DNA of 64,000 nucleotides from Nevskiaceae bacterium (GTDB lineage: Bacteria; Pseudomonadota; Gammaproteobacteria; Nevskiales; Nevskiaceae): NCBI GenBank assembly GCA_004297005.1, contig SCVA01000013.1, positions 12,501 through 76,500 of the forward strand, given 5' to 3'. Shown here piece after piece: positions 55,024-57,751 of this stretch. Under the pieces are notes generated by a model. The model was not told where the DNA came from. It did no database searches and saw only the letters and a program-made list of their open reading frames with translations. Numbering within the stretch: the stretch's first letter is position 1; every line of letters begins with the position of its first letter. The translations under genes and the position numbers were made by a program.

Positions 55024-56109
55024 TTACCGAATCTTGAGGGTGGAAAGGCCGACCAGCACCAGGATCAGGGTGATGATCCAGAAGCGGACGATGATCTTGG
55101 GCTCGGCCCAGCCCTTGAGTTCGTAGTGGTGGTGCAGAGGCGCCATGCGGAAGATGCGCTTGCCGCCCGAGTACTTGAAGTAGCCCACCTGCAGCGCCAC
55201 CGACACGGTTTCGGCGACGAACACGCCGCCCATGATCGCCAGCACCAGCTCCTGCCGGACCAGTACCGCGACCACGCCCAGGGCCGCGCCCAGGGCCAGG
55301 GCGCCGACATCACCCATGAACACCTGCGCCGGGTAGGCGTTGAACCACAGGAAGCCCAGACCAGCGCCGGCAATCGCGGTGCAGAACACCGCCAGCTCGC
55401 CGACCCCGGCGATGTAGGGAATGCCCAGGTAGGTGGCGAACTTGACGTTGCCCGTGCAGTAGGCGAACACCGCCAGTGCCGAAGCAACCAGCACGGTTGG
55501 CATGATCGCCAGGCCGTCGAGTCCGTCGGTGAGGTTGACGGCGTTGGAGCTGCCGACGATCACCAGATAGGTCCAGACCACGAAGAACACCCCGAGCGGG
55601 ATCGACACGTCCTTCAGGAAGGGCACGATCAGTGCGGTCTCGGCCGGGGTCCTCGCCGTGAGGTAGATCGCCAGCGATACCGAGAACCCGGTCAGGGACA
55701 GCCAGAAGTACTTCTTGCGCGCAACCAGGCCCTTGGGATTCTTGTGCTTGATCTTGATGTAGTCATCGGCGAAGCCCACCGCCCCGAAAGCGAGCGTGAC
55801 CACCAGGGCGAACCAGACGAACTTGCTGGTGAGGTTGGCCCAGAGCAGGGTCGCCACCGCGATCGCCGCGAGTATCAGCAGGCCACCCATGGTCGGCGTG
55901 CCGGTCTTCTTCAGGTGCGAGGCCGGGCCATCGTCGCGGATCGGCTGGCCGAACTTGAACTGGTAAAGCCGCTCGATCAACAGCGGCCCGAACACGAAGC
56001 TGAAGATCAGCGCGGTGAGGATGCCCAGCACCGCCCGCACGGTGAGGTAATTGAACAGGCGCAGGAAGGAGTAGTCCGCCTGCAGCCATTGCGCGAGGTG
56101 ATAAAGCAT
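55024..56109 (-). CDS. mraY: phospho-N-acetylmuramoyl-pentapeptide transferase
   Basis: [41 protein letters not shown]. Confidence 0.98.
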
Positions 56110-56110
56110 T

Positions 56111-56377
56111 AGGACATGCTCCAGGCAATCCGGTCGCTGCGGCGGAGGTCGTTTCCGCGCAGTGCAAGGAAGAGAGAGCGTGGCTTGGTGGACCCAAGTG
56201 CGCGACCGATGACGCCGCAATGCGCGGAAACGGCCCCGCCCCGAAGGGCTGCGGCCCCCATTGCGCCATGCGTCGTTGCCAGCCCTTGCCGCGGAACCAC
56301 CACGGCGACGGTCTTGCGCCTAGCCTGGCGCAATGGGGACTCGCAGCGCAGCGATCGTATTGCCTGGATCATGTCCT
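56111..56377. repeat. MITE-like foldback element with ~31-bp terminal inverted repeats and two internal hairpin lobes
   Basis: AGGACATGCTCCAGGCAATCCGGTCGCTGCG (56111-56141) vs revcomp of 56347-56377 AGGACATGATCCAGGCAATACGATCGCTGCG: 28/31 identical; internal IRs 56150-56161/56221-56232 (12 bp) and 56256-56268/56326-56338 (13 bp) are perfect. Confidence 0.85.
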
Positions 56378-57751
56378 TTGCGTCTCCGCGGCGTTCTTGG
56401 CGCCGCTGTTGTCTTGTTCCAAGAGGGCGGCGACCACCCGCTCCATGCGGGCCGAGCGGGAGCCTTTGACCAGGGCGGTGCTGCCGGCGCCGAGCCGGCC
56501 GCGCAGCGCGGCGATGAGAGCGTCGAGGTCGTCGTAGGCCTGCGCGCCGGTGCCATAGGCCTTGGCCGCCTCGGCCGACAGCGGCCCCAGCGTCAGCAGG
56601 CCGTCCAGGCCCAGCGCGCGGGCGCGGCGACCCGCCTCGGCATGCAGGCGCGCGGCCTCCGGGCCCAGCTCGGCCATGTCGCCCAGCACCAGCAGGCGCT
56701 CGCCGGGCTCGCGCGCCAGCAGTTCCATCGCCGCGTTCAGCGAGGTGGGGTTGGCGTTGTAGGTGTCGTCGATCAGCCGGGCGCCACTGGCGTGGCGCTT
56801 GATCACCACCCGGCCCTTCGGCGCCTCGACCCCGGCCAGCCCGGCGGCGATGACCGCGGGCTCGAGGCCCAGCGCATAGCCGGCGGCAGCGGCGGCCAAT
56901 GCGTTGGCGACGTTGTGGCGACCGGGCAAGGGCAGCGTCACCGGCGCCGCGCCGGCGGGCGTCAGCAGGGTGAAGCGGCTGCCTTCGGGGCCGGCGGCCA
57001 GATCTTCGGCGCGCACATCGGCGTGGCCGGCAAAGCCGAAGCTGACGATGCGGTTGTCGCCCGCCATCCGGCCCCAGAGCTGGGCGTAGGCATCGTCGGC
57101 GTTGATGATGGCGATGCCGGCATTGAGCGCGGCGAACATCTCGCCCTTGGCGCGCGCCACCCCCTCGCGGGAGCCAAAGCCTTCCAGATGGGCGTCGCCG
57201 GCCTGGGTGACGATGCCGACGCCAGGACGCGCGAGCTTGGCCAGCGCGGCGATCTCGCCGGCGTGGTTGGCGCCCATCTCGATCACCGCCGTGCGGTGCT
57301 CGCGGCGCAGCCGGCACAGCGTCAGCGGCACGCCGATGTGGTTGTTGAGATTGCCCTCGGTGTAAAGCACCGGGCCGCGTGCCGCGAACACCGCCGCCAG
57401 CAGCTGCTTGGTGGTGGTCTTGCCGTTGCTGCCGGTGACGCCGATCACCGGCCCACCGAAGTGCCGCCGCCAGCTCGCTGCATAGCGCTGCAGCGCGGCC
57501 AGGGTGTCGGGCACCAGCAGTTGCGCGATAGGCACATCGACCGGCCGCGACACCAACGCGCCGACCGCGCCCTTGGCGGCGGCTTCGGCGAGGAAGTCAT
57601 GGGCATCGTGATGTTCGCCGACCAGGGCCACAAACAGATCGCCCGGCTTGAGCGCGCGGGTATCGGTGACCACGCGGGAGAACAGCGCGTCTTCGCCCTG
57701 CAAAGGCACGCCAAGGCGGCGGGCGGCGTCGGAGAGGCGCTCCATGCTCAC
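56369..57751 (-). CDS. murF: UDP-N-acetylmuramoyl-tripeptide--D-alanyl-D-alanine ligase
   Basis: ITGSNGKTTTKQLLAAV; LIDDTYNANPTSLNAAMELL. Confidence 0.97.
   Translation of the reverse strand: MSMERLSDAARRLGVPLQGEDALFSRVVTDTRALKPGDLFVALVGEHHDAHDFLAEAAAKGAVGALVSRPVDVPIAQLLVPDTLAALQRYAASWRRHFGGPVIGVTGSNGKTTTKQLLAAVFAARGPVLYTEGNLNNHIGVPLTLCRLRREHRTAVIEMGANHAGEIAALAKLARPGVGIVTQAGDAHLEGFGSREGVARAKGEMFAALNAGIAIINADDAYAQLWGRMAGDNRIVSFGFAGHADVRAEDLAAGPEGSRFTLLTPAGAAPVTLPLPGRHNVANALAAAAAGYALGLEPAVIAAGLAGVEAPKGRVVIKRHASGARLIDDTYNANPTSLNAAMELLAREPGERLLVLGDMAELGPEAARLHAEAGRRARALGLDGLLTLGPLSAEAAKAYGTGAQAYDDLDALIAALRGRLGAGSTALVKGSRSARMERVVAALLEQDNSGAKNAAETQRT

Follow-up and report, generated by a model that had tools for sequence, protein, structure and literature searches.

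Miniature inverted-repeat transposable elements (MITEs) of bacteria are usually regarded as transient remnants of a single insertion sequence (IS). Here we describe a foldback element located between murF and mraY in a 64,000-nt stretch of DNA, hereafter the window, from a Nevskiaceae bacterium (GCA_004297005.1, contig SCVA01000013.1, positions 12,501-76,500 of the forward strand). REPINs, which are pairs of short, GTAG-tagged REP sequences associated with RAYT transposases, reportedly combine two inverted hairpins into one mobile unit, as this foldback does. REPs are 20-40 bp long (PMC3733652), in contrast with the arms of 25-30 bp, the hairpins of ~100 nt and the TA duplication of the foldback. 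The TA-ended bacterial MITEs Correia/NEMIS, ERIC/IRU and RUP resemble it in being small and non-coding, with terminal inverted repeats, 5'-TA-3' termini, target duplication, stable stem-loops and locations near genes (PMC2229807). As such MITEs have already been reviewed (PMC2229807), the kind of element is known; by description, however, those families are ~100-200 bp long and consist of essentially one end-to-end stem-loop, whereas the window family has ~267 bp, two inverted hairpins with matched arms, and a conserved size and fold class-wide. The CIR repeats of Caulobacter/Brucella also consist of two long inverted-repeat arms and a linker, but they are reported to be without terminal inverted repeats, carry a GANTC motif and belong to another bacterial class (PMC2229807). 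The closest described analogue, likened by description, is QMITE1 of Coxiella burnetii, a gammaproteobacterial MITE of 300-400 bp with terminal inverted repeats of 21-28 nt, a very stable fold, variable ends around a conserved core, and overlap with gene 3' ends (PMC5896051). Unlike the foldback, QMITE1 has direct repeats that vary (2-3 nt), codes for basic peptides and is reported to be unique to Coxiella (PMC5896051).

Our reading, to which we assign a probability of about 0.72, is that the window element is a MITE-type non-autonomous transposable element of a large structured family, a passenger of IS5-type transposases whose fold is kept mainly at the DNA level. No description of its end sequences or of an IS5-type structured MITE was found in the open-licence literature, and the symmetric class-wide fold, the class-wide spread and the concerted replacement of the arms look undescribed in those accessible papers.

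A dispersed element that duplicates TA

BLAST searches of the window's own genome (3.57 Mb, 63 contigs, 93.65% complete) yielded about 22-24 dispersed copies, counting diverged, truncated and composite ones, and the four congeners G001-G004 harbour 12 to over 30 copies each. The original prediction, made from the sequence of the window, had proposed a small non-autonomous mobile foldback and called for a check of its copy number; the element is indeed multicopy. The other copies are ~70% identical to that of the window and up to 95% to one another. The window copy belongs to a diverged branch, with best matches at 72-80% identity, several of them from other genera.

TA is present at both ends in 16 of the 21 copies with readable borders, and most of these 16 are exactly TA + 267 + TA. 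The same ends are kept in composite copies, which measure 315-414 bp between the TAs and contain additional hairpins within the linker or stem, and in a deleted version of 173 bp with a single hairpin, suggesting that the ends are enough for movement. The composites L066, L074, L077 and L078 of the window's genome (contigs C58, C56 and C4) contain a second foldback of ~105 bp, GGCTCGCGACACGGTG...GGCGCCGG, within the linker or a hairpin of sequence GCACTTGGCCTCGGCGCGGC within the stem. Several loci have the linker foldback at an identical position, so the composite apparently moves as one. Derivatives of ~65-85 bp bounded by the terminal inverted repeats and resembling internal deletions of the element were also seen (L204:1980-2056 region, L226:2048 and L232:972-1055). 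Seemingly unpaired ends in genomes G004 and G006 correspond mostly to truncated or internally deleted copies, not to larger elements.

We searched the congeners for the joined flanks of 16 copies and obtained 10 uninterrupted matches in G004 (99% complete), indicating that these insertions occurred after the species split. Empty sister sites in G004/G003 (L274, L282, L271, L258 and L283) have a single TA, which means that insertion duplicates this dinucleotide, as a further check proposed with the prediction was meant to establish. Dispersed copies, terminal inverted repeats, a TA duplication shown by empty sites and the lack of an internal transposase are the marks of a MITE; with the covariation described below, they support the mobile foldback reading.

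A symmetric fold conserved across the class

The window unit, border dinucleotides included (56110-56378), comprises TA, 265 bp and TT. The TA on the mraY side (56110-56111), directly before the mraY ATG, is a target-site copy, and the TT on the murF side (56377-56378), at the position equivalent to the TA of other copies, is a degenerate second one. The outer arms, GGACATGCTCCAGGCAATCCGGTCGCTGC at 56112-56140 and its complement at 56348-56376 (plus strand, as for all parts of the fold), belong to a 31-nt inverted repeat, I1 (56111-56141/56347-56377, 90% complementary). In A1, our alignment of 41 element copies, arm 1 falls in columns 2-32 and the arms form helix 1. They enclose hairpin 1 (56141-56240; helices 2-4), a central mini-stem linker of ~8 nt, CCC(GAA)GGG (56241-56247; helix 5), and hairpin 2 (56248-56347; helices 6-8), the inverted counterpart of hairpin 1. 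The interior-loop motif of the first hairpin is CAAGG (56165)/GACGCCGC (56211) and that of the second GTCGTTGC (56272)/GCGCCTAG (56316). Internal inverted repeats occur at 56147-56165/56217-56235 (89%) and 56256-56271/56323-56338 (94%), and these and the outer repeat lie where the original prediction had placed them. The three-way junction that it drew has to be corrected, as the mini-stem between the two long hairpins makes the junction four-way. The unit of 265-267 bp holds only short overlapping frames and no coding gene, in agreement with the predicted absence of a transposase.

Folded alone, the 267-base stretch reaches -171.5 kcal/mol on the plus strand and -167 kcal/mol on the minus strand (z = -10.2 for both), and none of 200 shuffles folded as well. 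Since the loop motif of hairpin 2 is the reverse complement of that of hairpin 1, the order of parts is identical on the two strands, and each element is matched by the covariance model on both. In A1, 97.7% of the cells at paired positions are paired, with two-sided changes at 66 of 100 pairs and a covariation score of 0.429, versus 0.123 in shuffles and at most 0.071 when slid. The covariation, another proposed check, is therefore strong.

Our search model for the class-wide scan, covariance model R1, found one locus in the window at 242 bits, with the next best at 12 bits, a gap that indicates its specificity. Among 157 genomes evenly drawn from the Gammaproteobacteria, the window's own included, 32 have matches, mostly full length (261-284 bp). 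Named carriers include Halomonas sp. PA16-9 (210 bits), Azotobacter chroococcum NCIMB 8003 on plasmid pAcX50f (201 bits) and Pseudomonas aeruginosa PA83 on a plasmid (171 bits). On this last plasmid, which is conjugative (NZ_CP017294.1), an acyl-CoA dehydrogenase gene is followed at a distance of 5 bp by a full-length member (L398:1473-1741); the plasmid is a possible vehicle for the element between species.

Across 61 distinct elements, hairpin 1 has the conserved motifs CAAGGC and AACGC, the centre CCC..GGG (at least 80%), and hairpin 2 GCGTTGC and GCGCCTTG, although the model prefers its own motifs and thus biases motif conservation among low-scoring matches somewhat upward. At least three Watson-Crick types occur at 84 of the 100 pairs in these elements. 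The end sequences of subfamilies are wholly different, even inside one genome (G126, G186). Fold and size are conserved across the class while the sequence turns over through paired changes. The original prediction had anticipated neither this conservation nor the inverted repetition of one hairpin motif, the concerted arm changes and the IS5-family character of the ends.

Copies from two distantly related hosts, L360, L365 and L366 in G186 and L389 and L390 in G126, have ACTAAGACAAACGATAACAAAGCCTCATTCAG as their common arms, an indication that this subfamily has spread by horizontal transfer. At L360:800-1326 and L366:622-1306 of G186, copies of different subfamilies are adjacent or neighbouring. 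Searches of Rfam 15 gave no match in the window, and in 13 loci with class relatives no significant match overlapped the element; the phage record gave no match either.

Outer arms change as matched blocks

We compared copies whose cores are at least 90% identical. In 54 of 103 such pairs of copies, at least four of the eight arm pairs differ. The changes in the arms are 315 two-sided versus 11 one-sided, and those at the pairs within the cores of these copies 201 two-sided versus 291 one-sided, all counts being pairwise, with copies shared between pairs, and hence not independent events. The ratio of 315 to 11 means that the arms differ as matched blocks: the outer arms of near-identical cores differ together on the two sides. 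We favour template switching in the stem or selection for matched ends as the probable origin of this pattern. Folding of the palindrome in the course of replication would let one arm serve as the template for the other, or transposition would select matched arms; by either route, the fold would be maintained mainly at the DNA level, and the element could acquire a new IS end at its two sides simultaneously.

Gene conversion has been weighed as another origin. Recombination would homogenise the dispersed cores and spare the flanking arms, which would be old and matched beforehand. Dispersed copies in one genome make templates available for it, and cores up to 96% identical do occur next to arms only 12-25% identical. 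However, many copies with different arms postdate the split from G004, where their sites are empty, which leaves little time to convert all the cores. Moreover, the initial matching of each arm pair and the class-wide constancy of length would go unexplained. We find conversion rather unlikely, and less apt than template switching or selection for matched ends.

An RNA under selection accepts G-U pairs and rejects A-C. The alternative cells of A1 comprise 625 Watson-Crick, 52 G-U and 37 A-C combinations, and a G-U count so near that of A-C, with scarce intermediates, points to a process acting on DNA. The same figures bear on the proposal that the element is first of all a structured RNA, its fold kept by selection on the transcript (for mRNA stability, as a 3'-end stabiliser or as a small RNA) and its mobility secondary. 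The very strong covariation, the conserved interior-loop motifs, the location at gene 3' ends and the RNA effects known for ERIC and Correia elements (PMC2229807) are in its favour. Yet there is no preferred strand, both being alike in layout and both matching the model, the alternative pairs are nearly all Watson-Crick with G-U barely above A-C, no Rfam family corresponds, and copies adjoin the 5' and the 3' ends of genes alike. A primary role as RNA is thus improbable in our view.

A candidate mobiliser of the IS427 type

A search for PF13340 revealed IS5-family elements of ~810-860 bp (NF033580; PF13340 + PF01609 in two frames) that end with TAGGGCGTGTTGCC, TAGGGCCTGTTAACACTA or TAGGGAGCGTTGAC. 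IS427-group elements are described as having 2-bp duplications and two overlapping frames (PMC3281130). The foldback has no transposase, unlike these IS, but it has in common with the IS427 type the end sequence TAGGGYSTGTT... and the 2-bp TA target, with ends shared in elements of G186, G002 and G022/G041 (PMC3281130). Foldback-like IS ends are found at L246 (TAGGGCGTGTTGCCG) and L247 (TAGGGCCTGTTAACACTAAC) and, in the congener G002, at L244 (TAGGGAGCGTTGACAATT). G002 also harbours a family member starting with TAGGGAGCGTTGAC (L234:1988-2308, 196 bits), and its IS and foldback ends agree over the first 14 positions (14/14). The complete genome G186 has five IS copies ending with TAGGGCGTGTTAACACTAAT and foldbacks ending with TAGGGCCTGTTAACACTAC/T, a match of 17/18. 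The end sequences strongly suggest that IS5-family transposases of the IS427 type move the element in trans, and the enzyme would cut at both of its ends.

Several observations weigh against this reading. A PF13340/PF01609 transposase is absent from the window's genome and from G004, and most class-wide carriers are without a PF13340 IS. In G154, the IS and foldback ends match only partially, and the resident IS of G044 resembles the element of another genome more than G044's own. Other DDE_Tnp_1 elements of carrier genomes were considered as mobilisers and rejected, as their ends do not match. As for the matched arms, the mechanism that maintains them is one that we infer, and gene conversion between cores could also generate similar cores with different arms. 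No pair of end patterns 0.7-2.5 kb apart, as for an autonomous copy with the same ends, was found in the window's genome, and the structure model has no match inside the IS loci examined. For the window's own genome, an IS427-type mobiliser is likely but unproven.

Element-rich genomes devoid of IS5-type transposases might instead point to a dedicated enzyme that reads the folded hairpins, as Y1 transposases read REP hairpins, the IS-like ends being convergent. The REP/RAYT systems set a precedent (PMC2817692), and the loop motifs conserved in both hairpins are in principle readable by a protein. Nevertheless, the TA duplication and terminal inverted repeats suit DDE transposition, and the ends of resident IS427-type elements match in G186 and G002. 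Our enzyme search covered PF13340 and PF01609 only; we consider a dedicated enzyme doubtful.

A single architecture, with its two hairpin motifs, its mini-stem and a nearly constant size, has been kept class-wide despite change at almost all paired bases, and the ends switch in matched pairs. The family raises two testable questions: how palindrome arms stay identical, by template switching or by selection, and how non-autonomous elements persist once their transposase is lost, by exchanging their ends. We tentatively propose that the inherited unit might be a DNA shape, that of a symmetric two-hairpin element, not a sequence, with outer arms re-copied from each other, IS recognition ends swapped on both sides, and persistence across the class while mobilising enzymes come and go.

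Insertion at the murF-mraY junction

The murF-mraY junction is empty in G001-G004 and in all other family members read, as the sister-strain comparison suggested in the original prediction was expected to reveal. In these relatives, the stop of murF overlaps the start of mraY (TGATG/TAATG) or lies almost next to it. An ordinary, non-mobile operon spacer is ruled out, the element being repeated, bounded by TA and missing from that junction in all relatives read. The junction sequence is CACTAATG in G001 and in L090, the latter from a Nevskiaceae bacterium that is the nearest named relative by MurF (73%), and the window retains TAATG on the mraY side. The window copy landed in the overlapping stop and start codons.

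Both genes are on the minus strand. The murF gene (56369-57751) now ends with a TGA at 56369-56371, 7 bp inside the element, and the C-terminus of its product reads ...AAETQRT, versus ...AAEAH or similar in relatives. The ATG of mraY (55024-56109) abuts the element, and the protein is 90-97.5% identical to those of congeners. Tolerance of the insertion by the host is probably explained by the stop, start and ribosome-binding-like GGAG that the two genes retain.

Elsewhere, a TAG stop is built from the border TA and the first G of the element at 22 of the 45 gene 3' ends facing copies, a count that takes in some frames that are possibly not real genes; plain examples of a stop codon at the border are L066, L074 and L082. 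Insertion at the TA of TAA/TAG lets the upstream gene keep a stop. Completion of the stop codon at the target TA is thus an insertion habit that allows a large hairpin to sit in an essential operon. Copies adjoin gene 5' ends, besides 3' ends.

The GGAG, 9 nt upstream of the mraY ATG, is supplied by the element arm and may be an adapted ribosome-binding site. Where the mraY-side arm (56118-56125) has GGAG, the arm opposite reads GGAT; this difference is among the three mismatches between the arms.
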